DNA from: Rhizobiales bacterium dw_265
Lineage (GTDB): Bacteria; Pseudomonadota; Alphaproteobacteria; Micropepsales; Micropepsaceae
Assembly: GCA_018449595.1 (NCBI GenBank)
Contig: JAAVUU010000001.1
Coordinates: 434,001-498,000, forward strand
Direction: 5' to 3'
DNA length: 64,000 nt
Part shown: positions 2,999-19,606 of the stretch, piece by piece
How the letters are laid out: each line of letters starts with the position of its first letter
Position numbering within the stretch: position 1 is the stretch's first letter
Made by a program: the position numbers and the translations under genes
The notes under the pieces: model-generated
Databases searched by the model: none
What the model was told of the DNA's origin: nothing
Seen by the model: only the letters and a program-made list of their open reading frames with translations

Positions 2999-3642
2999 GC
3001 GAACTGACCCATCTTGTACTGTGCTGCGGTCTTGGCCCGCACTTCTTCCTCGGTCACGCCCGGCGCCAGTTCTATCAGCACCATGCCGCCCCTGGCGCGG
3101 TCGATGTCGAACACCGCCAGGTCGGTGATGACCATGTCGACGCAGCGGCTTCCCGTCAGCGGCAAGGTGCAGACCGGCAATATCTTGGGACTGCCCGACT
3201 TGTTGGTGTGTTCCATCACCGCGATAACGCGCTTGACGCCCGCCACCAGGTCCATCGCGCCGCCCATGCCCTTGACCATCTTGCCGGGGATCATCCAGTT
3301 GGCGATGTCGCCATTTTCCGACACTTCCATCGCGCCCAGAACCGCCATGTCTATATGGCCGCCCCGGATCATGGCGAAGCTGTCAGCGGAGGAAAAGAAG
3401 CTCGATGTCGGCAGCGCCGTGACGGTCTGCTTGCCGGCATTGATCAGGTCGGCATCCTCATCGCCCTCGAAGGGAAAGGGCCCGATCCCCAGCATGCCGT
3501 TCTCGCTTTGCAGCGTGACGTGCAGGTCGTCGGGAATGAAGTTGGCCACCAGGGTCGGAATGCCGATACCCAGATTGACATAGAAGCCCGGCTTCAATTC
3601 CCACGCGGCGCGCGCTGCCATCTGTTCGCGTGACCAGCCCAT
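2995..3642 (-). CDS. 3-oxoacid CoA-transferase subunit B
   Basis: The 215-residue beta subunit of a family I CoA-transferase starts with the usual [17 protein letters not shown] segment. It carries the catalytic glutamate, Glu47, in [10 protein letters not shown], which forms the enzyme-CoA thioester. It works with the adjacent A subunit to move CoA from succinyl-CoA to a 3-oxoacid. The start overlaps the A-subunit stop by ATGA and its own stop overlaps the thiolase start. It could be PcaJ-like or ScoB-like; succinyl-CoA is the usual donor for both, so the acceptor acid is not settled by sequence. Confidence 0.9.
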
Positions 3643-4406
3643 CAGCCACCTGCCTGGTGCGGACGCGTGGTACGGTGCTCGATGCGGCGCTGATAATCCC
3701 GGCCTTGGAACAGGCGGTTGACATAGATGCCCGGGGTATGGACCTGGTCGGGATCGAGCGTGCCCTCCGGCACCAGTTCCTCCACCTCAGCGATGGTGAT
3801 CTTGCCCGCTGTCGCCATCATCGGATTGAAGTTGCGCGCGGTCTTCCGATAGACCAAGTTGCCGGCGCTGTCGCCGCGCCAGGCCTTGACGATGGACAAA
3901 TCCGCGCGCAGCCAAGTCTCGCGCAGATAGACCTCGCCATCGAATATATCCGTCGGCTTGCCCTCGGCCACCACCGTGCCGACGCCCGTGCGCGTATAGA
4001 AGGCCGGGATGCCCGCACCGCCAGCGCGGATGCGTTCGGCCAGCGTACCTTGCGGGTTCAGTTCCAGTTCCAGCTTTCCGGCCAGGTAAAGCTCCTCGAA
4101 CAGCTTGTTCTCGCCGATATAGGACGAGATCATCTGGCGGATCTGCCCGTTGTTGAGCAGCTTCCAAAGGCCAAAATTGTCGGCGCCGCAATTGTTGGAG
4201 ATGACGGTGATACCTTTCACGCCATCCTGCTTGAGCGCGTCAATCAGGTTTTCGGGATTTCCCGTCAGGCCGAAACCGCCTGACATGATGGTCATGCCGT
4301 CGAATGTCACACCCGCCAGCGCCGAGCCAGCGTCGCGATAAACCTTGCCCTGCGCCGCGATAGTGCGGCCAGTCACTTCATGCTGTTTGCTATGTAATCC
4401 AGACAC
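3642..4406 (-). CDS. 3-oxoacid CoA-transferase subunit A
   Basis: This 254-residue alpha subunit has the CoA-binding glycine-rich segment ([18 protein letters not shown]) and the [19 protein letters not shown] and [13 protein letters not shown] blocks typical of ScoA. These read closer to succinyl-CoA:acetoacetate transferase than to PcaI. The start used is GTG at 4406, which adds about 20 residues before the usual start region near KVYRDAG. No good Shine-Dalgarno sequence is seen, so a shorter start is possible. A strong terminator hairpin lies 25 bp upstream, so expression may depend on read-through from the 5962 promoter. Confidence 0.88.
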
Positions 4407-4566: not shown

Positions 4567-5361
4567 TCACTTCAATGTTGAGACGACGGTGCTCTTTTCC
4601 ATGCCATCCGCCTTCAATGCCTCGTCAATCGCGGGCCCCTGCAGGAATTTGATCAGGGCGCGCGCGGCTTTCGGATCGTTCGCGTTCTTGCCAATCACCG
4701 CCTGGATGATGGCGGGAACCTGCAGCGCGGGAATCACCGGACCCAGATTCCTCAGCTTCTTGTTGGGAATGATCTCGCTGAGCGGATACAGGTTGATTTC
4801 ATACTCGCCCGCCGCCAGCGGCACTTCCTCGCGCAGGGTGCTAGAGTCGTGAACCTTGTCCGCGATATCGAACTTGGCCATGACGTTCCTGACCGTCATC
4901 AGGGCGGCGCCAGTGGGCGCATACTTGATGGATTTCGCCGCCAGCATGGTCTTCTTCAGCGCTTCGGGCGTGCTGACATCCACTTCGGCATCGCCGCGCA
5001 GACCGATGGCGACGGGAACCCGCGCGATCTCGAAGGCCTGCGGCCCGATCTTTCCGGCGGCCAGAAGCTGCTCGTTGACGTCGGGCAGCAATATAGCGAC
5101 CTCGAAATCCTGCCCCTTGAGGATTTCATCCTTCAAGTTGCCGCGCGCCGAACCATATTCGGCCACCAGCGGCTTGCCGGCCACGGCCTGCGCCTTGTCC
5201 ATCACCGCATCCAGCGGCTCGCGGATCGCTGCCGTCACGATCACCCGGATGTCGCCGGGCTTGGCGTCGGCTACCTTCGGGCCTTTGAACCCTTGCGCCA
5301 TGGCAGCGGGCGCTGTCGCGAAAGCCAGTCCAGCACACAGAATGAAATTTGCAATCCTCAT
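4567..5361 (-). CDS. ModA-like periplasmic substrate-binding protein (orphan)
   Basis: The 264-residue product has a Sec signal (FILCAGLAFATAPAAMA). Its body resembles molybdate-type extracellular solute-binding proteins (SBP_bac_11): a first strand IRVIVTAAIREPLDAV, a central hinge and a C-terminal FLQGPAIDEALKADGM helix. The start at 5361 is preceded by AAGGAAAAGTGG. The open frame extends upstream to 5805 but that part overlaps the SnoaL-like gene and is not protein-like. No ABC permease or ATPase gene is nearby. It is paralogous to the protein at 10255-11034; both share a PGDxR entry motif. Binding specificity is unknown and unlikely to be molybdate given the context. Confidence 0.75.
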   Translation of the reverse strand: MRIANFILCAGLAFATAPAAMAQGFKGPKVADAKPGDIRVIVTAAIREPLDAVMDKAQAVAGKPLVAEYGSARGNLKDEILKGQDFEVAILLPDVNEQLLAAGKIGPQAFEIARVPVAIGLRGDAEVDVSTPEALKKTMLAAKSIKYAPTGAALMTVRNVMAKFDIADKVHDSSTLREEVPLAAGEYEINLYPLSEIIPNKKLRNLGPVIPALQVPAIIQAVIGKNANDPKAARALIKFLQGPAIDEALKADGMEKSTVVSTLK

Positions 5362-5374
5362 CCACTTTTCCTTT

Positions 5375-5962
5375 TTAACGGGCATCGCCGCCGCGCGGCG
5401 GCTTGGGCTTGAACGGTGTGATGTCATCATCGTCGCGCCACACCACCCGTTTCTTGAACTTCCAGCCCTCGGCGGTCTTGACCAGCCAGTCGTTGTAGAT
5501 GGCGATCTCCACCCAGGCGTCCGGCGTCGCGCGCGCGCTGTAGAGCAGCAGGTAGCACGAGCCCTTGGCCCCTTCGGGTGTCCTGGTGACGACGAGATTG
5601 GCGGTGAAATGGCGCGTGCCGCTGGTATTGCCCATCTGGACCAGGGCTGCCGTGCCCTTGCGGGGCGTGCGGTCGTCATTGGCCTTGCCGGGGCCGCGCC
5701 CGCCGGTGAATTCTCCATCGGGCGTGAAACAGGCGGCAAAGGCTTCGCCAGCGCCCATGTCCAGCGCATGGCAATAGCGATGATAAAGTTGCTGGATTTC
5801 GACATAATCGTCGGTCGAAACCTTCAACCCCCATACGCCCTTGGCGTTGGCCAAGTCGTCGGCCCCTGTTTGGGATTGGGCCCGGGCCGTATCCGCCCCG
5901 GCCACCGCGCCCAGCAGCGCCGCCAGCGCGGCGCCGCCCGTCAGAACATCACGCCTTTCCAT
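5375..5962 (-). CDS. Tat-exported SnoaL/NTF2-like protein
   Basis: The 195-residue product has a twin-arginine leader (ERRDVLTGGAALAALLGA) ending near TARA, then a SnoaL_4/NTF2-like alpha+beta domain (DDYVEIQQLYHRYCHALD, AACFTPDGEF, TRHFTANLVV, DWLVKTAEGWKFKKRVVW). Members of this fold include polyketide cyclases, ketosteroid isomerases, scytalone dehydratase and the gamma-formaldehyde lyase LdpA of lignin-dimer catabolism. Here it is a periplasmic lyase, isomerase or dehydratase candidate. The start at 5962 has GGGGAAAAGAC upstream, and the 14-bp palindrome lies 62 bp upstream. It leads the 5962-1380 gene run. Confidence 0.78.
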   Translation of the reverse strand: MERRDVLTGGAALAALLGAVAGADTARAQSQTGADDLANAKGVWGLKVSTDDYVEIQQLYHRYCHALDMGAGEAFAACFTPDGEFTGGRGPGKANDDRTPRKGTAALVQMGNTSGTRHFTANLVVTRTPEGAKGSCYLLLYSARATPDAWVEIAIYNDWLVKTAEGWKFKKRVVWRDDDDITPFKPKPPRGGDAR

Positions 5963-6023: not shown

Positions 6024-6037
6024 GTCATATATATGAC
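6024..6037. promoter_or_regulatory. 14-bp perfect palindrome GTCATATATATGAC, regulon operator candidate
   Basis: This is a perfect palindrome, 62 bp upstream of the start of the 5962-1380 gene run. Related copies occur at 9216, 14578 and 16266, each in front of another cluster transcription unit. GT...AC dyads with an AT-rich core are typical of GntR-family operators, so the gntR product at 645 is the natural candidate binder. The TATATA core could also overlap a -10 box. Confidence 0.7.
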
Positions 6038-6109
6038 TATAGCACGATAGCGGAGGTTGTCGAGAAAAGGCGTGGCGCCGGAGCGGTTGCCCCGATCCGG
6101 CGCGCGCCA

Positions 6110-9070
6110 TCAGAACTTGAACCGCACGCCGCCCTTGTAGGTGCGCCCGATCAGATCATAAGGGTCGCCGCCGGTAATGAAGGCGACAAAGGCGAAGGAC
6201 GGCGGATCCTTGTCGAACAGGTTGGTGACATTGCCGTACAGCGTCACGGCCTGGCCGTGATCGGACCAGATGTCATAGGCTTCCGAGAGATCCACATAGA
6301 CCTGCGCCGGGAACTGGTTGATGTTGACGCTATTGGGCAGGGCTGGGCTGTAGCCATTCTGGCCCGGCCCGATCATCGTGGCGTCGGCGCGGATGTCGGA
6401 GGTGTAGCGCAGCTGCACATTGCTGACCAGGCCATCCAGGGCATAGGTGATGTTCATGTTGCTCACCCAGTTCGCCACGCCGCCACCGATGCCGCTGCCG
6501 GCGAAGTCGGTATAGGTCACCGCCGAAGTGGTGGACAGGACATCGGTCCAGGTCGTCAGCCAGCGGATGCTGAGGTCGCCGGGCAGGTTCCATTCATCCA
6601 GCGGCGCATGATAGCTGAGCTCGAAGTCCATGCCGTTGGTCTTCTGCTGGTTCAGGTTGGCTGGCGTGCTGTTGATCAGCAGGCCCCCGCCCGGGCCCCC
6701 GCCCGGCACGATCAGGGCGCAATAGGAGGCGATGCCCTGGGCGCAATAGGAGTCGATATTGATGTTGGAAACGGTGGTGATCACCTTCTGGATATTGACG
6801 TCGAACCAGTCAATGGAGGCGCTGAGCCCCTCGAACCAGCCCGAGGACGGCGTATAGACGACGCCGATGGTCGTGCTGTCGGCGCTTTCCGGCTTCAGGT
6901 TGGGGTTGCCGCCGGTGGCGGTGTATTCCGGACCGGAGGTGTGCTGGCTTGCGCTGTTGAAGCTGGCGGTGATGCCCAGGCTGACCGTGGAGTCCAGATC
7001 GGTGATCGAGGGTTCTCGCACGTCGCGCGAGCGGGTGGCGCGGAAGCGCAGGTCGTCGAGCGGCTGCCAGTTCAGGCCCGCCTTGAACGTGGTGACATTG
7101 CCGAACAGGCTGTAGCCGGTTTCGCGCACCGCGATATCGGCGTCCAGCGACTGGGCCCATGACAGATCCTTGGCGAGCGGAACACCGACTTCGACATAAC
7201 CGTCAGTGACCTCGAAGGACCCCGAATAGTTGGAGCCGTTGTTGGACAACGAATAGTTGTTGGTGCCTTCAAAGTCGGTATAGGACCGCCCGCCCTCGCG
7301 GCGATGCTCAATACCCAGGGCCAGCGACACCGGCCCCGCCCACAGCGAGAAGGGTGTGCCGCGCACATTGGCCGAGATCACATCCTGCTGATAATAGAAG
7401 CCGCTGTTGGTCTGATGCTGGAAGTATTGCGCGGCGGCCGGCGAGCCGACATTGCCGTTCGTGATGGACGGCCCCAGGCCGGCAACGGAGAAATTGCGGC
7501 CATTGCCGGGCACGACGTTCAGCGTGGTGCCGAAAATGTTGAACGGCACGCAACCGGCAGAAACCTGGCCCTGGCGGCCGGCGCCTATGCTGCCGGCGGC
7601 GAGGTTGGGATTGGATCCAACCGGGCCGCAGACCGGCACGCCATTGGGACCTGCCACCGCGAAAATCGATTCCAGGTAATTGCCTTCCAGAACATTGGTC
7701 AGCAATGGCGTCGTCTGTGGCGACTCGCCATGGATATAGTTGGCATCCCAGCTCCAGTCGCCGAAAATCTTGCCCTTGAAGCCGGCGGCGGCGCGCCAGG
7801 TCGTGTCACGCTGCTCGAACTGGTAACCACCCAGCGCTTCTTCCTGCTTGCCCACGGTAATGGTGGACAGGTTGTTGGCGTTGGCGATCGCCTGGATGGC
7901 GGCGGGCACATACGGATTGGCGTAAGGCCCCGACACCGGCACGATGATGTTGGTTTCCTGGTGGAATGTGCTGAGGCCCGTGGCCTCGCCATGGCCATAC
8001 ATGTACTGCACATAGGCGCTGGTATCGTCGTTGATGTCGTAGCTCGCCTTGCCATAGGCTGTCCAGCGACGATGCGGCGCTTCCAGCACCAGGTCGCCGT
8101 TGGGATTGGCATGCGGATCACCCGGATTGGCGGCGCCGCCATACATCAGGATGCCGGCGAGCGTGCCCTGCTGAAAATTGTACGGCGTGCCGTTGGGACC
8201 AAAGGCGACATTGTTCAGCCCGTTAAAGGCCGCACCCGTCGCGGTCTTGGCGCCCACGATCAGGGTGCCCGCCGCCTGGGTTGACCAAGTACAGCCATTG
8301 ACCAGTGACGAAGCCGGCGCCCCCGCGGCGCGCTGCGCGGCGGTGTTGGTGACCAGGCAGGCTTCCTGCTTGCCGTAAAGGTCGGGGCGCGAATAGATCG
8401 TGCCGACGCCGTGATTGTTGGACCAGTCGCCGCCCCCGACCAGGTGCAGCCGGTCGTGCAGCAGATCCGCGCCGCCGGCGATGCTCATGGCTGGTTCGAT
8501 ATTGTCGCCACGCTCGGATTCGCCGTACTGAACCGACCCGATGATGCCGTCAATGTGATCCTTCATGCGGAAGTTGAGCACGCCGGCAACGGCGTCAGAA
8601 CCATAGGCCGCCGATGCGCCGCCGGTCACCACGTCCACTCTGTCCACCAGCAAAGTAGGAATGAGGTTGATGTCCACCGAACCGCCGATATTGGTGGGCA
8701 CGGTGCGTTGGCCATCAATCAGCACCAGGGTGCGGTTGGTGCCCAGGCCGCGCAGGTCAACCAGGTTCTGGCCGTTGGCGTTGCCGCGCGGCGCCTGGGT
8801 GGTGCCGGTGGTCTGGCGCAACTGGGGAAGCTGGTTCACGACATCGGAGATCGTGGTGGGCGCGCGTGCCTGGATCGCGGCGGAGTCAGTCACCGTCACC
8901 GGCGTGGGGGTGACAAAGCCGCCTCCCAATCGCGAACCCGTCACCTCGACCTGCTCCACCGCTTCCGGCGTGGCGGCATCCTGGGCCATTGCCGCGCCCG
9001 CGGCGACCGTCGCCAGCATGGAGGTAGCAAGCAAAACACTCTTCAGATGCATGGAACGGTGCGGCGACAT
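6110..9070 (-). CDS. TonB-dependent outer-membrane receptor
   Basis: The 986-residue protein starts with a Sec signal (VLLATSMLATVAAGAAMAQ). A TonB-box-like segment (EAVEQVEVTGSR) follows, then a plug domain with TISDVVNQLPQL, LVDLRGLGTNRTLVLIDGQR and GGASAAYGSDAVAGVLNF. A long 22-strand-type barrel ends in the aromatic C-terminus GGVRFKF. The length and the LVDLRGLG/RTLVLIDG wording match the large receptors of sphingomonads and caulobacters that import plant-derived or aromatic substrates. The start at 9070 has AGGAGAGGG upstream. It is transcribed alone, with the 14-bp element 146 bp upstream. It probably imports the cluster's starting substrate. Confidence 0.93.
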   Translation of the reverse strand: MSPHRSMHLKSVLLATSMLATVAAGAAMAQDAATPEAVEQVEVTGSRLGGGFVTPTPVTVTDSAAIQARAPTTISDVVNQLPQLRQTTGTTQAPRGNANGQNLVDLRGLGTNRTLVLIDGQRTVPTNIGGSVDINLIPTLLVDRVDVVTGGASAAYGSDAVAGVLNFRMKDHIDGIIGSVQYGESERGDNIEPAMSIAGGADLLHDRLHLVGGGDWSNNHGVGTIYSRPDLYGKQEACLVTNTAAQRAAGAPASSLVNGCTWSTQAAGTLIVGAKTATGAAFNGLNNVAFGPNGTPYNFQQGTLAGILMYGGAANPGDPHANPNGDLVLEAPHRRWTAYGKASYDINDDTSAYVQYMYGHGEATGLSTFHQETNIIVPVSGPYANPYVPAAIQAIANANNLSTITVGKQEEALGGYQFEQRDTTWRAAAGFKGKIFGDWSWDANYIHGESPQTTPLLTNVLEGNYLESIFAVAGPNGVPVCGPVGSNPNLAAGSIGAGRQGQVSAGCVPFNIFGTTLNVVPGNGRNFSVAGLGPSITNGNVGSPAAAQYFQHQTNSGFYYQQDVISANVRGTPFSLWAGPVSLALGIEHRREGGRSYTDFEGTNNYSLSNNGSNYSGSFEVTDGYVEVGVPLAKDLSWAQSLDADIAVRETGYSLFGNVTTFKAGLNWQPLDDLRFRATRSRDVREPSITDLDSTVSLGITASFNSASQHTSGPEYTATGGNPNLKPESADSTTIGVVYTPSSGWFEGLSASIDWFDVNIQKVITTVSNINIDSYCAQGIASYCALIVPGGGPGGGLLINSTPANLNQQKTNGMDFELSYHAPLDEWNLPGDLSIRWLTTWTDVLSTTSAVTYTDFAGSGIGGGVANWVSNMNITYALDGLVSNVQLRYTSDIRADATMIGPGQNGYSPALPNSVNINQFPAQVYVDLSEAYDIWSDHGQAVTLYGNVTNLFDKDPPSFAFVAFITGGDPYDLIGRTYKGGVRFKF

Positions 9071-9215
9071 TGGTGACCCTCTCCTGGAATTTTTTGACCG
9101 TGAATTTCCCCCAAGCAGAACAATGCCTTGGTGAAAAGCGCGGCGTTTTTCGTTTCCTCTCGGGCCGGTTTTGGCCCATTTTTATTTCGTGCCGAGACGT
9201 TAGCCGTCTCTAACA

Positions 9216-9229
9216 GTCATATATATCTC
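9216..9229 (-). promoter_or_regulatory. Regulon element upstream of the TonB receptor gene
   Basis: The plus strand reads GTCATATATATCTC. In gene direction this is GAGATATATATGAC, identical over 14 bases and in the same orientation to the copy upstream of the PQQ dehydrogenase (16266-16279). It matches the perfect palindrome at 6024 except in one outer half-site. The 229-bp spacer 9071-9299 between the receptor start and the convergent end of the MBL gene holds nothing else recognisable. Confidence 0.65.
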
Positions 9230-9299
9230 TATATCAAAGATATCATCTATGAAAGTGCCTTCCCGCAGTTTGCAGGACGATGTCACATTTTTGCATGGG

Positions 9300-10232
9300 C
9301 TATTTCAGTTCGGCGGCGCGGTCGCTGCGCTCGTTGAACTCGACATTGGACAGGCTGAGATAGGGAATGCCGCGGCAGCCGCTGGCGTCCTTGGCCGGAT
9401 CGCCCATCGCTGTTTTCACCTCCACCAGCGACTTGCCGGAATCAACCAGCGCATCAACCTTGTCCTTGATGCCCTGATATTCGGACACCCGCTTGCGCAG
9501 ACTGTCCTTGGTATCGAGATCCCTGGCATGGCCGCCGACATAGGAATCGACGGCCAAACCCAGCAGGCCCTGCGCGTTCCTGAACCAGCCTTCAAAGGTG
9601 CCGTTCTTTTCGGGATGGACCAGGACCGTGCTGGTGATGATGTCGCCCGTAAAGGCGATCTTGTAGGCGGGAAGCTCCACAATCAGGTCGCCATTGGTGT
9701 GGGCGGGTCCGAAATGGTGAATGACAAAATGCTCGCCGTCCAGCGTGGTGGAAACCTTGTCGTTGTAGATGATGACATTCGGCAGGCGGTTGGCGGGCGG
9801 AATGCACTTGCCGCCGCCCACTTCCACGGCGGCAAATTGATAAACCGCCATCTGCTCCATCTTGTTGTTCTCGTGCGCGATGATCTTGAGCCCGTCGGGA
9901 AAGCCTGCCAGACCATTGACATGATCACCGTCGCTGTGGGTGAGAATGACATGGGTGATGGGCTTTGGCGTTAGCTTGGCGACTTCGGCCACCAGTTGTG
10001 CACCGGCCTGCGCCGTCGTCTTGGCGTCAATCACCACCACACCCTTGTCGCCGATGATGATGCCGGAATTTCCGCCGCCGCCTTCGACCCAATAGAGCTT
10101 GCCGTCCTTGATTGCATGCACGGTCAAGCCCTGCCCCTGCTGCGGGCGGGCGGCCTGTTCCTGCGCCGTGGCGGTCATGGCAAGCACCAAGGCCGTAAGG
10201 GAGAAGACGGCAAATCCCGTGAGCGGTTTCAT
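9300..10232 (-). CDS. Exported metallo-beta-lactamase-fold hydrolase, variant metal motif
   Basis: The 310-residue product has a Sec signal (FAVFSLTALVLAMTATA) and an MBL fold with the first metal motif as H99-S-D-G-D103-H104, then GPAHTNGD, FTGDI and GGHARD. In the canonical HxHxDH motif the second His is replaced by Asp101, so one zinc site is altered or the chemistry differs. The start at 10232 has AAGGACCAGGAC upstream; an ATG 18 bp earlier is less likely. It is the last gene of the 14505-9300 run and begins 22 bp after the binding-protein stop. It could hydrolyse a lactone, ester or diketone product of the periplasmic oxidation; this is inference. Confidence 0.82.
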   Translation of the reverse strand: MKPLTGFAVFSLTALVLAMTATAQEQAARPQQGQGLTVHAIKDGKLYWVEGGGGNSGIIIGDKGVVVIDAKTTAQAGAQLVAEVAKLTPKPITHVILTHSDGDHVNGLAGFPDGLKIIAHENNKMEQMAVYQFAAVEVGGGKCIPPANRLPNVIIYNDKVSTTLDGEHFVIHHFGPAHTNGDLIVELPAYKIAFTGDIITSTVLVHPEKNGTFEGWFRNAQGLLGLAVDSYVGGHARDLDTKDSLRKRVSEYQGIKDKVDALVDSGKSLVEVKTAMGDPAKDASGCRGIPYLSLSNVEFNERSDRAAELK

Positions 10233-10254
10233 GTCCTGGTCCTTTCGCATCCTG

Positions 10255-11034
10255 TCAGCGGCTCTGATTGCTGGCCTTGAGGACCGGCTCGAATGCTGAA
10301 TCCATCAGATACCGCACAATTCCGCGCGCCGCAGCGGCATCGCCCTTGGCCCCGATTCCGGCCATCAGCACCACCGGCACTTCCAGTGCGCCCGGCGCAT
10401 TGCCAAGAAAGACGTAAGGGGCGCGGGCGCTCTCCCCCACGATATTGATCAGGATTTCATATTCACCCGGGGCGAGCGTTACTGACTGCACCGGCTGGCC
10501 CATCACGGTCTTCTGCACCCTGCCCCTGATCGCCTCGGCGATGCCCAGCGCGTCAACGATGTGCAGCGCCGTCGGCTCGGCCGCAGCATTGGCCGACCAG
10601 CGGATGGACTTCGCGCCCAGCAAGGCGCGCTTCACAGCCGCCGGTGACGCGACATCCAGGGGCGGCACGTCGCCACGCTGAAAGAAACCGACATGGATGC
10701 GCGCCACGACCGGGTGGTCCGCCAGCATCGTGCCCTTGGCGATTTCGGCTTCAACGACGTCCTGGGTGACGAGCGCCAATTCGAACGGCTGGCCGGTTTC
10801 CATTTGCCGCTGCAGGACATGGGATTCGCTGTATTCGAATATCAAAGGACGGCCGATCAGGGCCTGCAAATCGGCGCGGACCTTGTTCATCGGCACCTTG
10901 AGCCCATCGGTGATCATCAGCCGCATATCGCCCGGCTGGGCGTTCGCGACATTTTCCGGTGTGGTGGTCTGGGCCAGCACGGGAAGCGACAGCAGCGAAA
11001 GAATGAGGGCCAGGCGCGCGATCATCATGTCCAT
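10255..11034 (-). CDS. Second ModA-like periplasmic binding protein (orphan)
   Basis: About 259 residues with a Sec signal (ALILSLLSLPVLAQ) and the same SBP_bac_11-like architecture as the 4567-5361 product: PGDMRLMITDGLKVPMNKV, a central KSIRWSANAAAEPTA segment and a C-terminal VRYLMDSAFEPVLKAS. The frame is open back to 11082, but those codons lie in a perfect terminator hairpin, so the start is 11034 or the ATG pair near 11028-11023. No transporter genes accompany it. Two divergent paralogs in one regulon suggest binding of different intermediates, or a periplasmic role other than ABC transport. Confidence 0.72.
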   Translation of the reverse strand: MDMMIARLALILSLLSLPVLAQTTTPENVANAQPGDMRLMITDGLKVPMNKVRADLQALIGRPLIFEYSESHVLQRQMETGQPFELALVTQDVVEAEIAKGTMLADHPVVARIHVGFFQRGDVPPLDVASPAAVKRALLGAKSIRWSANAAAEPTALHIVDALGIAEAIRGRVQKTVMGQPVQSVTLAPGEYEILINIVGESARAPYVFLGNAPGALEVPVVLMAGIGAKGDAAAARGIVRYLMDSAFEPVLKASNQSR

Positions 11035-11039
11035 CTTCG

Positions 11040-11074
11040 AAAGCAAAGGCCCGCCCGGTTTTACCGGGCGGGCC
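11040..11074 (-). terminator. Strong hairpin terminator or attenuator between NHL and binding-protein genes
   Basis: An 11-bp perfect stem (GGCCCGCCCGG 11048-11058 with CCGGGCGGGCC 11064-11074) has a 5-nt loop. On the minus strand it is followed by TTTGCTTT. It fills the 47-bp gap after the NHL stop (11082) and before the binding-protein start (11034). This is the second terminator-like hairpin inside a cluster operon and the second beside a ModA-like gene. Confidence 0.75.
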
Positions 11075-11081
11075 ATACGCA

Positions 11082-12296
11082 CTAGTTGCCGGTGACCTTG
11101 GCTCTTTCCGGGTGCAGCACGAACCGCTCGACACGATCGTTCACGAACTCGGCGGTGTAGATGAGGTTTTCCGACGGACAGGCCAAGCCATGGATCGAGC
11201 CGGGATTACCCCACTCCTTGCCGACATGACCGAAATAACCCAGCACCTTGCCGCTCAGGTCAATCTTGTAGACGCGGCCGGGATAGATGTCCCCCAGCAG
11301 CATGACATTGGGATTGTCCTTGGGCTGGCACAGCGCGTCGGGCGTGCCCGGACGCGGTTCCAGGTTCTGCTTCTTGTCGGGCGTGAAGGCCTCATACTTG
11401 CTGGGATACTGATGGCCCATCAACGGCTGGTACTTCTTGGTCGGCACATTGACGATCACCTGCCGCAGATAGTTGCCGTTGGTGTCGAAGATCTGGATGC
11501 GGCCGTTGGTGCGATCGGCGACCCAGACATGGTCATTCTTGTCTATCTGGACATTGTGGACGGTATGGAATTCGCCCGGCCCGGTGCCGCATTTTCCGAA
11601 CGAGCCGATCCAGTTGCCAGCGGGGTCGAACTTGGCCACCCGGCAATGCACATAGCCGTCGCTGACATAGATATTGCCCTTGGAATCCCAGGCGACATCA
11701 GTCGGCGCGGCAAAGCCGCCTTCTTCCGGCGGACGATCGCCGCGCGCATCGGGATCGCCCTTCCAGTAGGGCGCGCTGGCTTCGGCGCGGCGGCCCAGCA
11801 CCAACAACTGCTTGCCGGTCACACCGTCAAACTTGGTCACCATGTCGGCGCCCTTGTCCACCACCCAGATATTGTCGTCCTTGTCGGCGCGAATGCCATG
11901 GCCATAGGCGAAGCCGTACATGCCGTGACCGATCTCGCGGACAAAGTTGCCCTTCTCGTCGAATTCCAGAACCTGGGTGGCATTGCCGCCATAGACATTG
12001 CCGCGCACATCGTTGCGATTAAGCACGAAGACATGGCCCTTGGAGTTGGTCGTGACGGCGGAAACCTCGCCGAAGTCCACGTCCTGGCCATAGGGGGCGC
12101 TGGGCGGCAGCTTGAACCAGTGCGGATCCACCGGGTCGAAGGGAATTTCGGGCGCGATCTGCGGCTTGGCGAATTCCGGCGGATAATAGATGTCCTTATA
12201 GTCCACGACCGGGCGGACCTCGAGCTGGGCGAAGGCCGCCGTCGCCACGCCCACGCAAGCCGTCGCCAGCAGCGCGGCCTTCAACATACGCTTCAT
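11082..12296 (-). CDS. Secreted NHL-repeat beta-propeller protein
   Basis: The 404-residue product has a signal peptide (LKAALLATACVGVATAAFA) and repeated NHL-type blades: VTTNSKGHVFVLNRND, GHGIRADKDDNIWVVDKG, DVAWDSKGNIYVSDGY, HNVQIDKNDHVWVADRTN and a final IHGLACPSENLIYTAEF. The fold is a six-bladed propeller of the peptidyl-alpha-hydroxyglycine lyase type. The start at 12296 has GGGAGATGATGAC upstream. It lies 37 bp after the triple-SnoaL gene. In the periplasm it could bind or cleave an oxidised intermediate; no catalytic residues can be assigned with certainty. Confidence 0.82.
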   Translation of the reverse strand: MKRMLKAALLATACVGVATAAFAQLEVRPVVDYKDIYYPPEFAKPQIAPEIPFDPVDPHWFKLPPSAPYGQDVDFGEVSAVTTNSKGHVFVLNRNDVRGNVYGGNATQVLEFDEKGNFVREIGHGMYGFAYGHGIRADKDDNIWVVDKGADMVTKFDGVTGKQLLVLGRRAEASAPYWKGDPDARGDRPPEEGGFAAPTDVAWDSKGNIYVSDGYVHCRVAKFDPAGNWIGSFGKCGTGPGEFHTVHNVQIDKNDHVWVADRTNGRIQIFDTNGNYLRQVIVNVPTKKYQPLMGHQYPSKYEAFTPDKKQNLEPRPGTPDALCQPKDNPNVMLLGDIYPGRVYKIDLSGKVLGYFGHVGKEWGNPGSIHGLACPSENLIYTAEFVNDRVERFVLHPERAKVTGN

Positions 12297-12333
12297 GTCA
12301 TCATCTCCCATTGCGATTTTGAAAAGCAGGTCA

Positions 12334-14505
12334 TCAGAAGCCGCCGCATTTGAGGATGTCGGCGCAGTAGTTTGGGGGTGCCCGACCACTGACGGGATTG
12401 CGATAGGCAAACCACATCGGCTTGATGTCGGGCCAGTTCGTGTTCTGCATCCCTTTCCAGCGATAGCCGTCCAGGACGGTGCGCGGAATATCGGGAGGGA
12501 AGTCGATCGTGTTGGTGATGCCCGTCATGGGCGCGGGCATGCCCGGGCGCCAGCCGGCATCGCCGGTACCGGCGCGATCGGATCGCTCCGGCACCCTGCC
12601 CCAGCCGTCCTTCCAGCTGGAAGACCGGATATAGGTTTCGTCGATCTCCCCGCCCACCTGCATCTTCCACACCCCGCCTTCCTGGGTGAAGGTCTCGTTG
12701 GGATACATGCCGGTGCTGAAGCTACTGGGTTCCTTGCCCTTCTGGCTGGCGTGGTACAGGAACAGGCGGGTGCGCACTTTGGCCGTGGCGCCATCGGGCG
12801 CGATCTCGATCACCGGCTGCAACCGCTGATGGATGTTGATGTGATCGCGCGGATTGGTGGGCGATGGCGGACCGCTGAAATGGGTCTGCGTCATCGCTTC
12901 CAATATATGCTTGTGGCCGACATAGAAGCCGGGCCCCTGCGGCCGCGTACCGTCAATGGCGAAATTCTCCGCCATCTGGTCCCACATCGTGTCGTCGAGA
13001 TAATAGCCGAAAGTGTTGGAGACGTTTTCGACCGCGTCATAGGCCTTGGCGACCGCCAGCTTGCGGCGCGCCTCCGCCAGGCGCTGTGCGACAGAGCCGG
13101 ATGCCGCCGCCGGCGCAAGCGGCGCTGGCGCGGGCAACAGGCGATCCGCGCCGACCACCTTCAACCCGTCGGGATAAACCACCGCCTTGCCGGTGCCCGG
13201 ATTGGGGAAATCGAACACCGGAATCGCGCCGCTGACCTGCGGGGAATTGTCGGACGATGACGGCTTGTCGGGCGCTGCGGCGCCGATGGGCCGGGGATCG
13301 ATGACATCGCTCTTGCCCCAACCCTGATAATAGTCGGCCTTCATCTTGGGATAGAGCCGCATCTCGCGGATACGCCACTTGCCGTCGGCGCCGCGCAGGT
13401 AGCGGTTTTCGAAGATGGTCACCGCCCAATAGGCCTCGCCCAGCTTTGGCGACAGCATGGCAAGCTCCAGGCCGCGCGCCCGCGCCTCGTCGCCATCCAC
13501 GGTGACATACGCGTTCATCTGGATATGATCATTGGCTTGGCCGCGCTTCAGGCCTTCGGGCCCGTCGCGTTCCAGCGCGCGGCGGATGTTCCTGGGACCA
13601 GACCAGATCCCCTGCCCCGCGATCTCCAGCACGCCGTCATCGGCGAACAGGTCCACAACATCGGACCACATCTTGCGGTCAATATAGTAGCCATAGATGT
13701 TCTGCAGGTTGCGCACCGCATTGGCGTCGTTCATCGCCGCGATGCGCTGCTCGCTTTCCGCCAGGCCAAGCTTGTGGCTGCGGTCCACGCCACTGGGCTG
13801 GTCCGGCACCGGCCGGCCCGCCTGGCCAGGCGTATAGGTGTAGGGCACAAGCGGCAGGCTGTCCTTGCTGGCGTAAAAGCCCGTTTCATAGGGGCCGGAA
13901 TATTGCGGGTAGTAATGGATGCGCGCCAGCTTCCACACGCCCTTGACCCGCATATAGTCGTTCAACTGCATGCCGCCGGTGATGCCGGCGCTGCCGGCCT
14001 TGGCGCCGTTCAGTTGTCCGTCCAGCGACATGCGGGTCCAGCGCGCCGTGGCGCTGTCGCCGTCGTAGGAGAGGATGACAACCGGCTGCATCACCAGGTC
14101 GGTATGCAGCTGGCCTTTCGCCAAGCCTTCCTTGCCGCCATTGAATTCGTCCTTCAGGTGCTGGACGAAATCACCGCGCCCCTTGAACGCCACCTTGTCA
14201 TTTGAGACCAGTTCGACATCGTCGGTGACCAGCCCGCCGATCTCGTCCCACAAGCCGAATTCCGCAAACTGGGTATAGAGGATTTGCAGGTTCTTGATCT
14301 GGCGCAGCGATTGCGCGCGCTCGACATCACGCCCCAGCGCCTCGACCCGTTCCGGGCTGTCGGCGGCAACCGTCAGCAGTTCGCCGCGGCCCTGGGCTGC
14401 CACCGGCAGGGAACGGCCGGCAATGATCGCCAGCCCAAACGCCACAGGCAGCACCGCGAGGCGCAAGATGCGCCCGCCGATTCCGTGCTTCCCGGAACGT
14501 CCCAT
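12334..14505 (-). CDS. Exported protein with three tandem SnoaL/NTF2-like domains
   Basis: This 723-residue protein has an N-terminal signal segment (LAVLPVAFGLAIIAGRSLPVAA). Three SnoaL_4-like units follow at about residues 60-200 (RQIKNLQILYTQFAEFGLWD), 255-390 (AVRNLQNIYGYYIDRKMWSD) and 480-625 (AVENVSNTFGYYLDDTMWDQ), joined by Pro/Ala-rich linkers. A C-terminal tail has two Cys residues near CADILKCGGF. Each unit keeps the buried Asp/Trp region, VxDDxEL-like strand and WKLxRIHYYP-like end strand. Three fused copies are unusual for a family normally of 130-180 residues. The start has GGAGGGAAT upstream and a regulon element 73 bp away. It leads the 14505-9300 operon. Confidence 0.8.
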   Translation of the reverse strand: MGRSGKHGIGGRILRLAVLPVAFGLAIIAGRSLPVAAQGRGELLTVAADSPERVEALGRDVERAQSLRQIKNLQILYTQFAEFGLWDEIGGLVTDDVELVSNDKVAFKGRGDFVQHLKDEFNGGKEGLAKGQLHTDLVMQPVVILSYDGDSATARWTRMSLDGQLNGAKAGSAGITGGMQLNDYMRVKGVWKLARIHYYPQYSGPYETGFYASKDSLPLVPYTYTPGQAGRPVPDQPSGVDRSHKLGLAESEQRIAAMNDANAVRNLQNIYGYYIDRKMWSDVVDLFADDGVLEIAGQGIWSGPRNIRRALERDGPEGLKRGQANDHIQMNAYVTVDGDEARARGLELAMLSPKLGEAYWAVTIFENRYLRGADGKWRIREMRLYPKMKADYYQGWGKSDVIDPRPIGAAAPDKPSSSDNSPQVSGAIPVFDFPNPGTGKAVVYPDGLKVVGADRLLPAPAPLAPAAASGSVAQRLAEARRKLAVAKAYDAVENVSNTFGYYLDDTMWDQMAENFAIDGTRPQGPGFYVGHKHILEAMTQTHFSGPPSPTNPRDHINIHQRLQPVIEIAPDGATAKVRTRLFLYHASQKGKEPSSFSTGMYPNETFTQEGGVWKMQVGGEIDETYIRSSSWKDGWGRVPERSDRAGTGDAGWRPGMPAPMTGITNTIDFPPDIPRTVLDGYRWKGMQNTNWPDIKPMWFAYRNPVSGRAPPNYCADILKCGGF

Positions 14506-14577
14506 ATTCCCTCCAGCAGGGCCGCTCTTGTCCGGCGGCCTTTGCGTCCGACCAGCCGGGAATGCCCAACTGGTTCA

Positions 14578-14591
14578 GTCGTATATATGAC
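14578..14591 (-). promoter_or_regulatory. Regulon element upstream of the triple-SnoaL operon
   Basis: GTCGTATATATGAC differs from the perfect palindrome at 6024 by one base and sits 73 bp upstream of the 14505 start. It lies in the 148-bp spacer between the AtoE-like gene's stop (14654) and the SnoaL start, where only the minus-strand SnoaL operon needs a promoter. Confidence 0.65.
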
Positions 14592-14653
14592 TTTAAACAC
14601 AGGCTTGCGCTTTTGTCGAGGCGCGCGGAAGCGATTTGGTGCACTGCACACGG

Positions 14654-16033
14654 TCAGGGGATCAACCAGAGCGACAGCGAGTACAACACAAGCGACACCG
14701 CGAAGGTGATCGCGGTGTATCCCATCACCCGCTGGATGCGGATGCCGGCGATGGCGACGACCGGCACCGCCCAGAAAGGCTGCAGCATGTTGGAGACATT
14801 CTCCGCCATCGCCACGCCCATGATGGAATGCGGGACCGAGGCATGCAGCGCCAGCGCCGCTGGCACGACAAACGGCCCGTCAACCGCCCAATGGCCGCCG
14901 GCGCTGGGGATCAGCAATGTGATGATCAGCGAGCTGAGGAAGCTCCACAGCGGCAGGGTCGCCGGCGTCGCCACCGCGACAAAGCCCTTGGAGATCGCCG
15001 CCGCCAGGCCGGTGCCGCGCATGATACCCATGATGCCGCCATACATGGGATATTGCAGCAGCATCGAGCCGGTCTGGTGCGCCGCCCGGCGAATGGACTC
15101 GGCATAAGCGATCGGCGTGCGCTGCAGCGCCAGGCCGATCAGGAAGAACAGCAGAATGGTCATGTTGATGTCGAGTTCGAAGTCGCCGCGCGACAGCAGC
15201 AGCCCGATGTAGGAAAGCCCCAGCGCCAGCAGCAGCAGGGTGCCGGTCATCGAACGCTCGGCCCAGGCGGCAAAGGAGCCGCCTTCGCTGGTCTTGCCAT
15301 GGGGCTGCGATGCCGCGGCGGGGCCTTCCGCGAAGGTCACGATGCCGTCGCCCGTGGGATGGATGCGGATGAAGATCACCATCATCACCACGACCACGGC
15401 AACCGTGGGAATGAACACAAAAGGCGCGAAAATCGTGGTCGAAAGCGGCACGACACGGCCGCTCAACTTCTCCACGAAGTTCAGCGCGTTGCCATGGCTG
15501 GCCTGCGACAAAGCGATGGAACTGGACAGGCCGCTGTTGCAGATGGACCATGCGGAATAGCTGCCCGCCACCAGCCAGGCGAAATCCACCCGGGTGCGCC
15601 GCGCGATCTCGCGTGCCAGCAACGCGCCCACCACCAGGCCCAGGCCCCAGTTCAGCCAGGCGGCGGCCGCCACGGTCGGAAACACGATCAGCGCCGCCTT
15701 GGCGGGAGTCTCGACTCGCGCCGCCAGGGCGCGCAAGGCCCGCTGCACCGGCGCGGCGTCGGCAATGGCAAAGCCGGTCGCCAGGATCAGGATCATCTGC
15801 AGCGCAAAGGCGAGGATGCCGAATGCGCCGGTAAACCAGGATGTCAGGATGGTGGGAACATCGCCCTTGGGCGCGAAGCCCGCCGCCATCAGCACAACCA
15901 GCAAGGTGAGCCCGATCGAAAGCACGAAGGGATCCGGCATGATCTTCTCGAACAGAAAGACCAGGCCCGCGACCACGCCGCGCCCCTTGGCGGCGGCCGG
16001 TGCATCGTGCGGCAGAGGAGATGACTGGGTCAT
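14654..16033 (-). CDS. AtoE-like short-chain fatty acid transporter
   Basis: This 459-residue integral membrane protein has about a dozen hydrophobic segments and the family blocks ATGFAIADAAPVQRALRALA, WLNWGLGLVVGALLAREIAR, SIRRAAHQTGSMLLQYPMYGG and PSAGGHWAVDGPFVVPAALA, typical of TIGR00366/AtoE carriers for C4 acids such as acetoacetate or butyrate. It is divergent from the PQQ dehydrogenase across a 300-bp shared region with a regulon element. In the cluster it would bring a short acid or keto acid made in the periplasm to the CoA-transferase. Substrate range is inferred from the family. Confidence 0.9.
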   Translation of the reverse strand: MTQSSPLPHDAPAAAKGRGVVAGLVFLFEKIMPDPFVLSIGLTLLVVLMAAGFAPKGDVPTILTSWFTGAFGILAFALQMILILATGFAIADAAPVQRALRALAARVETPAKAALIVFPTVAAAAWLNWGLGLVVGALLAREIARRTRVDFAWLVAGSYSAWSICNSGLSSSIALSQASHGNALNFVEKLSGRVVPLSTTIFAPFVFIPTVAVVVVMMVIFIRIHPTGDGIVTFAEGPAAASQPHGKTSEGGSFAAWAERSMTGTLLLLALGLSYIGLLLSRGDFELDINMTILLFFLIGLALQRTPIAYAESIRRAAHQTGSMLLQYPMYGGIMGIMRGTGLAAAISKGFVAVATPATLPLWSFLSSLIITLLIPSAGGHWAVDGPFVVPAALALHASVPHSIMGVAMAENVSNMLQPFWAVPVVAIAGIRIQRVMGYTAITFAVSLVLYSLSLWLIP

Positions 16034-16265
16034 GCCATGCTACCTTGCGCCATGGCCACACCGCGAGCCACAGCGGTGCGGCGAACAATATGCCTGCCGC
16101 ATCGCGAAAAGCATTGTGCGCCGCAATATCCCTCGCGCATGCGCGCTTGTTTCGCGTACTGAAGTGTCCTGATCATCTTCCCTCCGGATATTTTTCCGTT
16201 TTTTCTTCACGCCACCGCCCGCGACGTCTTGCAACAAACTGGCAATGGCGGTGGAATGTGGTACA

Positions 16266-16279
16266 GAGATATATATGAC
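16266..16279 (+). promoter_or_regulatory. Regulon element in the AtoE/PQQ divergent promoter region
   Basis: GAGATATATATGAC lies 54 bp upstream of the PQQ dehydrogenase start, in the same orientation relative to the gene as the copy in front of the TonB receptor. It sits in the 300-bp divergent spacer (16034-16333) and could serve both directions. The rest of the spacer holds no other clear feature. Confidence 0.65.
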
Positions 16280-16333: not shown

Positions 16334-18175
16334 GTGAAACTGACACTGACACAAACGGTCTTGGCCGCATCCATCGCGGCTGGCCTGGCCGGCACATCCA
16401 TCGCCTGGGCGCAATCCGCCGAACGGCCCGCTGTCGGGCCCGTGGGCATCGCGCCACGCATCCAGCCGGACGCCAAGGCGAAGGAGATTATCGCCCAGCG
16501 CGCCGCTTTGGCCGCCAGCATCACCCCGGTGGACGACGCGATGCTGCTCAATCCCCCGCCCGGCGACTGGCTGTTGTGGCGCCGCACCTATGACGTGCAC
16601 GGCTTCAGCCCGCTGAAAGAGATCAATCGCGACAATATCGCCAGCCTGAACACGGCCTGGGCCTGGTCGCTGCCGCCCACCACCACCCAGGTGACGCCGC
16701 TGGTGCATGACGGCATTCTTTATGTGAACGCCGCCGGCGGCCGCGTGCAGGCGCTGGACGCCACCAATGGCGAACTGTTGTGGGAATACAGCCGCCCGCA
16801 GCCGGCCGAAGGCGAAGCCCGCGCCGGCCAGGCATCGGTGCATCGCAGCTTCGCCATCTATGGCGACAAGCTGTATCTGGGCACCGACGACAAGCACGAG
16901 GTCGCGCTGGACGCCAAGACCGGCAAGGTGGTGTGGGATCATGCCTTCGCCGATGGCAAGGACTGGCGCTTTACGTCCGGCCCGCTGGCGGTGAAGGGAA
17001 AGATCATTCAAGCCACGGTTGGCTGTGAAGCCGGCGGCTGCCCGGTCATTGCGATGGATGCGCAGACCGGCAAGGAATTGTGGCGCTTCTACACGGTCGC
17101 CCATTCCGACCAGCCCGGCGGCGACACCTGGAACGGCCTGCCCGACGACCAGCGCTTCGGCGCCTCGGTCTGGACCACGCCGAGCTACGATCCCGAGCTG
17201 AACCTGATCTATGTCGCGACCGGCAACACCTACCACTGGCAGGAACTTATGAAGGGCGGCCCGGGCAAGAAGAAGAACCGCGACGGGCTTTATGTAGATT
17301 CCACCATTGCCCTCAATCCCGATACCGGCAAGCTGAAATGGTATTACCAGCACCTGCCGCAGGATTACTGGGACCTGGATTTTGCCTTCGAGCAAACCAT
17401 CGCGACCGTCAACTACAAGGGCAAGCCGCGCAAGGTGGTATGCTCCACCGGCAAGATGGTGTGGACCGACTGCGTGGATGCGGCCACGGGCCAGTTCCTC
17501 TTCGCCCATGACGAAGGCCTGCAGAACATCGTCAAGACCTACGATCCCAAGACCGGCCGCAAGACTTATAACGAGCAGGCCATCCCGGACCTGACCGGCC
17601 AGCGCCGCGACCTGCAATGTTCGGCCGGCTATGGCGACAAGAACTGGCCCTCCGGCTCCTACGACAGCGCCACCGGCATCGACTACACGTCCCTAGTCGA
17701 GGTTTGCGGTGAAAGCGCCCCCACCATGTTCGGGCCCAACACCAGCGCCTATACCGCCGGCGAGGAAACACGCATGGCGCGCTACCAGCCCGGCACCGAC
17801 GGCAATATCGGCCGGCTGGATGCCGTAAACTGGGCCGACAACAAGATCCTGTGGTCGGTGCGCCAGCGCGCCTCCATCACCAGCGCCACCGTCGCCACGG
17901 CGGGCGGACTGATCTTCGCCGGCGACGCCGACCGCTGGTTCCGCGCCTATGACCAGACCGACGGCAAGGTGCTGTGGAAGACCCGTCTCAACGACGTCAT
18001 CAACACCTATCCGATCACTTATGCCGTGAAGGGCAAGCAGTATGTGGCGGTGGTGACGGGCTGCTGCGGCAACGGGCGGCTGAACAACATGCACCAGCTG
18101 ACCCCGGAAATCCTGCAGCCGCGCCCCGGCGGCTCGGTCCTGTGGGTGTTCGCCCTGCCGGACGCCAAGCAGTAA
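16334..18175 (+). CDS. PQQ-dependent dehydrogenase (quinoprotein), periplasmic
   Basis: The 613-residue quinoprotein has a signal peptide (TQTVLAASIAAGLAGTSIAWA) and an eight-bladed propeller with repeated PQQ blades such as YVNAAGGRVQALDATNGELL, YLGTDDKHEVALDAKTGKVVW and VIAMDAQTGKELWRFYTVA. The active-site Asp region is QDYWDLDFAFE (about residues 342-352). There is a GCEAGGC cysteine pair and a C-terminal GCCGNGR. There is no C-terminal cytochrome domain, so electrons must go to a separate cytochrome such as the one at 1380-1796. It should oxidise an alcohol to a ketone or aldehyde. It leads an operon with three SnoaL-like genes. Confidence 0.92.
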   Translation: MKLTLTQTVLAASIAAGLAGTSIAWAQSAERPAVGPVGIAPRIQPDAKAKEIIAQRAALAASITPVDDAMLLNPPPGDWLLWRRTYDVHGFSPLKEINRDNIASLNTAWAWSLPPTTTQVTPLVHDGILYVNAAGGRVQALDATNGELLWEYSRPQPAEGEARAGQASVHRSFAIYGDKLYLGTDDKHEVALDAKTGKVVWDHAFADGKDWRFTSGPLAVKGKIIQATVGCEAGGCPVIAMDAQTGKELWRFYTVAHSDQPGGDTWNGLPDDQRFGASVWTTPSYDPELNLIYVATGNTYHWQELMKGGPGKKKNRDGLYVDSTIALNPDTGKLKWYYQHLPQDYWDLDFAFEQTIATVNYKGKPRKVVCSTGKMVWTDCVDAATGQFLFAHDEGLQNIVKTYDPKTGRKTYNEQAIPDLTGQRRDLQCSAGYGDKNWPSGSYDSATGIDYTSLVEVCGESAPTMFGPNTSAYTAGEETRMARYQPGTDGNIGRLDAVNWADNKILWSVRQRASITSATVATAGGLIFAGDADRWFRAYDQTDGKVLWKTRLNDVINTYPITYAVKGKQYVAVVTGCCGNGRLNNMHQLTPEILQPRPGGSVLWVFALPDAKQ

Positions 18176-18189
18176 ACGGTTTGCCAGGG

Positions 18190-18711
18190 ATGCGCGCGGC
18201 GACCGCATGTCTTGGGTTGATAGGGCTGGTGGCGCTTCTGGCGCCGCCAGCCGTCGCCGCGCCCCTCGCCCCGACCGGCCCCGTTATTTTGACGGCCAAA
18301 GATTATTACGACATCGAACAGCTCTACTACACCTATTCCAGGGGCAAGGATTCGGGCGATGGTAAGCTGCGCGCCTCGACCTTCACCGGCGATGGCGTGA
18401 TGCTCAGCGATGTCAACAAGCATACGCCCGAGCCGATCGCTTCGGTGGCGCGGCGCACCGGCGATGGTACCCAGGGCTGGGGCGGGCGGCATCGCATCTT
18501 CAACATCATACTGACGCCGACGGAAACCGGCGTGGACGGCACCTGCTATGTCCTGATCAGCGACGGCAAGGACACCCATGACGGCACGCTGATCGCCTTT
18601 CCCGGCATCTATCACGACCGGCTGGTGAAGACGCAACAGGGCTGGCGCTTTACCTCGCGCGAGGTCTGGAACGAGCGCGAACCGGCATCGCCCTACCGGG
18701 GCCGACCATGA
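18190..18711 (+). CDS. Exported SnoaL/NTF2-like protein
   Basis: The 173-residue product has a Sec signal (LGLIGLVALLAPPAVAA) and one SnoaL_4-like domain: KDYYDIEQLYYTYSRGKD, ASTFTGDGVMLS, GGRHRIFNIILTPT, YHDRLVKTQQGWRFTSREVW. The start at 18190 is 14 bp after the PQQ gene stop, and its stop overlaps the next start by ATGA. It is most similar in layout to the 5375-5962 product. A role as lyase, dehydratase or isomerase acting on the oxidised product is likely but unproven. Confidence 0.78.
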   Translation: MRAATACLGLIGLVALLAPPAVAAPLAPTGPVILTAKDYYDIEQLYYTYSRGKDSGDGKLRASTFTGDGVMLSDVNKHTPEPIASVARRTGDGTQGWGGRHRIFNIILTPTETGVDGTCYVLISDGKDTHDGTLIAFPGIYHDRLVKTQQGWRFTSREVWNEREPASPYRGRP

Positions 18712-19121
18712 TCCGCACCGTCTTGGCGGCACTGGCTCTGTCGCTGTTGCCGATGCCTGGGCTGGCCGCCGCGCTATCGCCGCAGGACTATATGGACATT
18801 CAGCAGCTCTATGCCCGCAGCGCCGCCGAGGCGGATGCCGGTCGATGGACGCGCCATATGGTCATGAATGTCCTCCTCACGCCCGATGGCAACGGAGCGC
18901 ACGGTGTGGCCTATGCACTGACCGTCGGCGACACGCACCCACAGCCGCAGAACCTGATGAAGATAACCTCGGCCATGTATGACGACCGACTGGTGAAGAG
19001 TGCCTCGGGATGGCGCTTTGCCGGGCGACACCTGTGGCAGGACGAGGACCCCGCCACACCGTTCCAGAATCGCCATTGCCACGGCGGCATGAACAATTGC
19101 CAGCTCAAGGGGACGAAATGA
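18708..19121 (+). CDS. SnoaL-like protein with internal deletion
   Basis: The 137-residue product keeps a signal peptide (ALALSLLPMPGLAA), the first helix (QDYMDIQQLYARSAAEAD) and the C-terminal half (HMVMNVLLTP, YDDRLVKSASGWRFAGRHLW). It lacks about 40 residues between them that its three single-domain relatives have, including the FTPDGEF-like strand and the loop before the G-H-R segment. The frame is intact and both ends overlap neighbours by ATGA, so it is expressed as part of the operon. It may be a degenerate or structural partner subunit. A C-terminal NRHCHGGMNNCQ adds two Cys. Confidence 0.65.
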   Translation: MIRTVLAALALSLLPMPGLAAALSPQDYMDIQQLYARSAAEADAGRWTRHMVMNVLLTPDGNGAHGVAYALTVGDTHPQPQNLMKITSAMYDDRLVKSASGWRFAGRHLWQDEDPATPFQNRHCHGGMNNCQLKGTK

Positions 19122-19606
19122 AGCTTGCGCTCTTGCTGCTGGCTGCAACCGCGTTGCCAACCAGCGGCGCCCTGGCCGCCGTCACACCGCGGGACTATGC
19201 CCAGATCCGTGAACTCTATGCCCGCTATGCGATGGCGCAGGACGGCGGCGATGCCGGGACGCTGGCCGCACTGTTTGCGCCCGACGGCAAACTCAGCGGC
19301 GCCGAGACCCATCACCAGCCCCGCGCCGCAGTGTCAGCCCTGAAAACCCAGGTGGCGGAAGAAGGCCGCTGGGGCTGGGATCGCCATTTCCTGACCAATA
19401 TCCGGGTCCGCGAGGAAGACGGTGCGGTTCGGGCAAGTTGCGTCCTGCTGCTGCTAGACTCCCGGCCCAACACCCGCTTCCTGGTGCATGGCCGCACTGG
19501 CGTATACGAAGACCGTCTGGTCAAGACGGTCACGGGCTGGCGTTTCCAAGACCGCGAACTCTGGATGGATGGCGAAACCGCGGGCCCTTATACGCCGAAA
19601 CCCTGA
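19118..19606 (+). CDS. Exported SnoaL/NTF2-like protein
   Basis: This 162-residue protein is the last gene of the PQQ operon and overlaps the preceding stop by ATGA. It has a Sec signal (LALLLLAATALPTSGALAA) and a complete SnoaL_4-like domain: RDYAQIRELYARYAMAQD, AALFAPDGKLSG, WDRHFLTNIRV, YEDRLVKTVTGWRFQDRELW. With the 18190, 18708 and 5375 products it forms a paralogous set sharing the (D/E)DRLVKT-x4-W(R/K)F signature. No operon terminator is visible after it. Confidence 0.78.
   Translation: MKLALLLLAATALPTSGALAAVTPRDYAQIRELYARYAMAQDGGDAGTLAALFAPDGKLSGAETHHQPRAAVSALKTQVAEEGRWGWDRHFLTNIRVREEDGAVRASCVLLLLDSRPNTRFLVHGRTGVYEDRLVKTVTGWRFQDRELWMDGETAGPYTPKP

Follow-up and report, generated by a model that had tools for sequence, protein, structure and literature searches.

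A probable local control circuit with an operator of unusual type in a catabolic gene cluster of Rhizobiales bacterium dw_265

INTRODUCTION

In most operator sites of the HutC subfamily of GntR-type regulators, GT and AC are 4 nt apart (GT-N4-AC) (PMC4494728). The 2015 survey that gives this spacing (Suvorova et al.) lists SdhR, with the site TCTTATGTCTTATATAAGACATAAGA and the core GTCTTATATAAGAC, as an exception within the subfamily (PMC4494728). NagR and DasR are HutC-subfamily repressors under small-molecule control (PMC4333415, PMC4918961).

Here we describe a 14-bp element that lies in front of the transcription units of a gene cluster with the look of a catabolic pathway. Our comparisons make it very probable that the element belongs to a real local control circuit of this cluster, with an operator of unusual type. 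Literature searches for the regulon found no paper describing it.

RESULTS

The cluster and its candidate operators

The window is the whole 64,000-nt stretch of DNA that was analyzed. The relevant features, in window coordinates, are as follows.

645..1361, + strand: GntR-family regulator with a UTRA effector domain (HutC subfamily; Pfam PF00392 and PF07702), the proposed binder (GntR645)
1380..1784, - strand: cytochrome c (Pfam), last gene of the copy 1 operon; syntenic in genome G070
1793..2998, - strand: 3-oxoadipyl-CoA thiolase-type protein (PcaF family; TIGR02430 above cut-off)
2995..4406, - strand: 3-oxoacid CoA-transferase subunits B and A (TIGR02428 and TIGR02429 above cut-off)
4567..5301, - strand: periplasmic solute-binding-type protein (SBP_bac_11)
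5375..5962, - strand: SnoaL-like protein, first gene behind copy 1
6024..6037, - strand: candidate operator copy 1, perfect palindrome GTCATATATATGAC, 5' of the SnoaL/SBP/scoA/scoB/pcaF/cytochrome c operon (5962 to 1380, minus)
6110..9070, - strand: TonB-dependent receptor behind copy 2
9216..9229, - strand: candidate operator copy 2, GAGATATATATGAC in gene orientation, 5' of the TonB-dependent receptor
9300..14505, - strand: operon behind copy 3, four genes
9300-10250, - strand: SoxH-like metallohydrolase, copy 3 operon
10255-11082, - strand: SBP, copy 3 operon
11082-12296, - strand: NHL propeller, copy 3 operon
12334-14505, - strand: triple-SnoaL protein, copy 3 operon (723 aa, three SnoaL_4 domains in tandem)
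14578..14591, - strand: candidate operator copy 3, GTCATATATACGAC in gene orientation, 5' of the triple-SnoaL/NHL/SBP/MBL operon
14654..16033, - strand: AtoE-type transporter family, possible fifth unit (TIGR00366, 332.7 bits, below the cut-off of 575.75); syntenic in genome G082
16266..16279, + strand: candidate operator copy 4, GAGATATATATGAC, between the divergent PQQ operon (16334, +) and AtoE-type transporter (16033, -)
16334..19606, + strand: operon behind copy 4, a PQQ-dependent dehydrogenase and three SnoaL-like proteins

The sequence-only reading had placed four related 14-mers in front of four operons, and all four were found there. A scan of the 64-kb window for GTCATATATATGAC gave these four copies at ≤2 mismatches; dinucleotide shuffles give an expectation of 0.03, and none of 100 shuffles reached four. 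Relaxing the threshold to ≤3 mismatches, with an expectation of 0.47, added one weak site, at 20029. The distances from copy to start codon are ~62 bp for the SnoaL gene (5962), 146 bp for the TonB receptor (9070), 73 bp for the triple-SnoaL gene (14505), and 55 bp for the PQQ gene (16334), in agreement with the spacing of 54-146 bp given in that reading. Its observation that the copies at 9216 and 16266 are exact reverse complements that face their genes alike was also borne out, both reading GAGATATATATGAC toward their gene. Because the site at 16266 lies in a divergent intergenic region, the AtoE-type transporter gene, absent from that reading, may share copy 4.

Judged from their predicted functions, the genes that the element would control fall into uptake (the TonB receptor, the solute-binding proteins, and the AtoE-type transporter), periplasmic oxidation (the PQQ dehydrogenase, the SoxH-like hydrolase, and cytochrome c), and CoA-dependent breakdown (the 3-oxoacid CoA-transferase and the PcaF-type thiolase) of a putative pathway. 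Homologues of the triple-SnoaL protein, at 37-59% identity, occur in Caulobacteraceae and Sphingobium contigs, with two further copies in G070.

Copies elsewhere in the genome

The genome-wide counts given here come from pattern search only. At ≤2 mismatches there are 10 sites in the 4.2-Mb genome, 6 of which lie within a 25-kb stretch (C1:425843-450279) made up of the four window copies and two sites just left of the window.

C1:433044, window position -956: GTCATTTATATGAC, 1 mismatch; a second TonB receptor follows ~92 bp downstream
C1:425843, window position -8157: GTCATATAGTTGAC, 2 mismatches, upstream of a second PQQ-type gene

The genome scan proposed in the sequence-only reading, in which many unrelated matches would have spoken against a regulon, thus came out in its favor, the best sites being clustered here. 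Its statement that the window has no further copies holds at ≤2 mismatches; outside the window, C1:433044 and C1:425843 add two. The estimate of about 15 genes stands for the four units, and the count becomes ~17-20 if the AtoE-type transporter and the left-hand units belong.

Between the C1:425843 candidate operator and the second PQQ-type gene lies a metallohydrolase fragment (C1:426153-426368; L016:12153-12368) of 75 residues that is 49% identical to the metallohydrolase encoded at 9300-10250. This region looks like a decayed paralogous operon with its operator still there.

No catabolic context was found on inspection of the remaining 4 of the 10 sites. We rejected all of them as regulon members: C17:15008 sits within a transporter gene, C16:57763 overlaps a gene end and is followed by an unrelated gene, and the copies on C2 and C15 are without catabolic context. 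At ≤3 mismatches the genome has 45 sites versus 14 for the reversed pattern, and such weak sites are therefore not interpretable one by one.

Conservation in related genomes

The cluster is present in two genomes of the same genus, on one contig in G082 and split over two in G070. Most of its proteins are 60-83% identical there, and the GntR gene is at the same end of the cluster. The sequence-only reading had called for a comparison of orthologous promoters; across the three genomes, and hence on the basis of two others with an orthologous cluster, the site is kept in 3/3 at the TonB receptor promoter (the identical 14-mer in G082 and G070), 3/3 at the triple-SnoaL promoter (a perfect palindrome in G082, GTCATATAGAGGAC in G070), 3/3 in the PQQ-AtoE intergenic region, and 2/3 at the SnoaL promoter, where G070 has GTCATATGTATGAC in gene orientation (L066:6294) and the site is lost in G082. 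At these promoters the 14-mer and the TATA just before it remain, and the flanking intergenic DNA has largely diverged. The asymmetric GAG arm is kept at the TonB receptor in all three genomes and at the PQQ gene in two. G070 also has a good extra site (C31:7908; L067:7908), GTCATACATATGAC followed by TATATA, 3' of a PQQ-type gene and with no obvious target gene.

Sites at ≤1 mismatch are limited to 8 of 69 genus members, and no genomes but the cluster-bearing ones, which have a GntR645 orthologue, were seen to have sets of them. Single matches at this threshold were examined and discarded: those in G026, G067, and G076 are intragenic with no such cluster around them, that in G048 is in a gene-free stretch, and that in G018 is between unrelated genes, the last two also lying away from any cluster. 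The motif is missing at the triple-SnoaL gene of the more distant homologues, in G065 (48%) and in the Caulobacteraceae and Sphingobium contigs (37-41%). Therefore, the element tracks GntR645 and not the triple-SnoaL gene.

GntR645 and the palindromes of its homologues

The protein encoded at 645-1361 has an N-terminal GntR winged helix (PF00392, residues 9-71, 63.4 bits versus a cut-off of 27) and a C-terminal UTRA effector-binding domain (PF07702, residues 95-231, 86.8 bits versus a cut-off of 23.8), and this combination assigns it to the HutC subfamily. Among 96 genomes of the order, orthologues are found in G070 and G082 (77-79%, syntenic) and in G055 (58%). We found no site in the window near 645, at the gene's own promoter, and none at ≤2 mismatches of the consensus in the analyzed loci around the orthologues in G070, G082, and G055, their promoters included. 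A weaker site, GTCAACTATATGTC, occurs at the G055 locus, where it separates a TonB receptor from a transporter gene.

Loci of more distant homologues, outside this cluster and across the Alphaproteobacteria, have the same type of palindrome. G446 (47% identical) has an exact GTCATATATATGAC ~70 bp after gntR and 19 bp before a transporter gene; the G122 locus (42%) has GTCTTATAGAGGAC, the G359 and G352 loci (40-42%) have GTTCTATATAGAAC, the G032 locus (36%) has GTCTTATATAAGAC, and near copies of GTCTTATATAAGAC are present at those of G426, G324, G131, and G513. A site matching the consensus GTYNTATATANRAC lies ≤200 bp from gntR in 9 of the 18 such loci tested at ≤1 mismatch and in 14 of 18 at ≤2 mismatches, a test that is not fully independent because the consensus came partly from the tested loci. 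For comparison, the mean over 250 permuted palindromes was 0.09 loci at ≤1 mismatch, and the highest value was 4. Farther than 200 bp from gntR there is only one GTYNTATATANRAC site across the 18 loci, and in seven homologue regions of 12-20 kb every such palindrome adjoins gntR. Two results are independent of the GTYNTATATANRAC consensus: the exact window 14-mer beside the G446 homologue, and the rarity of the 16-mer TAGTCATATATATGAC, which occurs in just 2 of 385 genomes of the class, this one and G446, there beside the gntR homologue. The distribution of TAGTCATATATATGAC and the palindromes beside the homologues' own genes support the proposal, made in the sequence-only reading, that the GntR protein encoded at 645 is the probable binder.

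In a tree of the homologues there are two groups, one with mainly TCTTATATAAGA-type sites and the other, which includes GntR645, with GTC/GTT sites. Several loci of the former lie beside altronate-dehydratase-like or sulfolactate-lyase-like genes, and members of the latter are often beside amidohydrolase-like and transporter genes (names read from N-terminal sequences in both cases). At L083:1-780, L100:10549-12008, and L102:4000-5498, TCTTATATAAGA-type palindromes lie between the gntR homologue and altronate-dehydratase-like or sulfolactate-lyase-like genes. In the GntR645 subgroup (L082, L096, L097, L099, and L101) the recurring neighbors are an amidohydrolase-like gene and a transporter, a possible clue to the ligand type. 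An IPTE motif of the DNA-binding domain accompanies GTCA sites, but its carriers are mostly one clade, so we do not count it in favor of a contact.

Promoters and a proposed mechanism

TATA stands just 5' of most of the aligned sites, and at two of the four copies the element overlaps the -10 of a promoter-like sequence.

6036..6063, - strand: TCGACA-16-TATAGT with TG before the -10; the -10 overlaps candidate operator copy 1; hexamers and spacing are the same in G070
14590..14619, - strand: TCGACA-18-TAAAGT; the -10 overlaps candidate operator copy 3; TCGACA is kept in G082 and G070

Consensus-based promoter matches in the region number 6 versus 3.2 expected, a set not clearly above chance; the promoter argument therefore rests on position and conservation.

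We consider it very likely that GntR645 uses the 14-bp element as its operator. At every transcription unit of the cluster, a GntR645 dimer would recognize the palindrome GTC-ATATATAT-GAC. Each predicted operator would reach from the end of the predicted -10 across the predicted transcription start, and because the sites overlap both, a bound dimer would most likely repress. A pathway ligand would, on binding the UTRA domain, free GntR645 from the DNA, and uptake, periplasmic oxidation, and CoA-dependent breakdown would then be switched on together.

DISCUSSION

The element could belong to a different regulator, such as the IclR-type protein whose gene (C1:418754-419587) lies ~15 kb to the left of GntR645 or a protein from another part of the genome, with GntR645 a bystander. 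The lack of a site at the GntR645 promoter fits this reading; for HutC-type local repressors, an autoregulatory site at the own promoter is common but not universal. However, homologues of GntR645 in unrelated genomes have the same palindrome type beside their own genes, and GntR645 is at the cluster edge in both G082 and G070, whereas no called gene on the cluster contigs of these genomes (L066, L068, L069, and L075) matches the IclR protein. We judge ownership by another regulator to be decidedly improbable. It is less probable still, to the point of being hard to credit, that the element is a common core-promoter feature, an AT-rich -10 region whose palindrome is incidental. A TATAGT-like -10 does abut most sites, but the distal GAC arm is kept although it is outside the -10, the 69 genus members have few good copies, with sets of them only where a GntR645 orthologue is present, and the exact 16-mer is confined to 2 of 385 class genomes.

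If GntR645 binds the element, it could do so as an activator; some GntR-type regulators are activators, among them TauR of Rhodobacter capsulatus (work cited in PMC4494728). We regard activation as unlikely, since the site's overlap with the predicted -10 and start region puts it where repressors act, and since NagR and DasR, relatives within the HutC subfamily, repress (PMC4333415, PMC4918961). With GntR645 as the probable repressor, the catabolic cluster gains a specific candidate pair of operator and regulator, and the regulator could be used for finding the inducing compound.

GntR645 has the same GntR winged helix and UTRA architecture as NagR/YvoA, DasR, and HutC, and the solved structures closest to it by sequence are those of DasR and YvoA. 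It differs from them in its presumptive operator: instead of the GT-N4-AC core of most of the subfamily, with 4 nt between GT and AC, the element GTCATATATATGAC has 10 (GT-N10-AC). The likeness to SdhR, judged by operator, is closer, for SdhR is a HutC-subfamily protein with a GT-N10-AC core of 14 bp, GTCTTATATAAGAC, with a TATATA center. That core type, with GT and AC ends, is present in our own sites and in the 14 homologue loci within ≤2 mismatches of GTYNTATATANRAC, and distant homologues of GntR645 (L081, L091, L094, and L104) have GTCTTATATAAGAC or near copies of it. The half-site, in contrast, is GTCA here versus GTCT in SdhR, and the outer symmetry of SdhR (TCTTAT...ATAAGA) is absent, the flank here being TATA toward the promoter and variable on the far side. 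The regulated genes also differ, those here being a TonB/PQQ/SnoaL catabolic cluster.

These comparisons suggest that an SdhR-like operator is a clade-level property. It seems reasonably likely that an entire clade of HutC-type regulators within the Alphaproteobacteria works through 14-bp GT-N10-AC sites centered on TATATA, in which the third and fourth bases of the half-site (CA, CT, or TC) vary with lineage, and that the SdhR "exception" represents a distinct operator class. The wider comparison thus suggests that the reported HutC operator code misses a sizeable group, which matters for the prediction of regulons from sequence.
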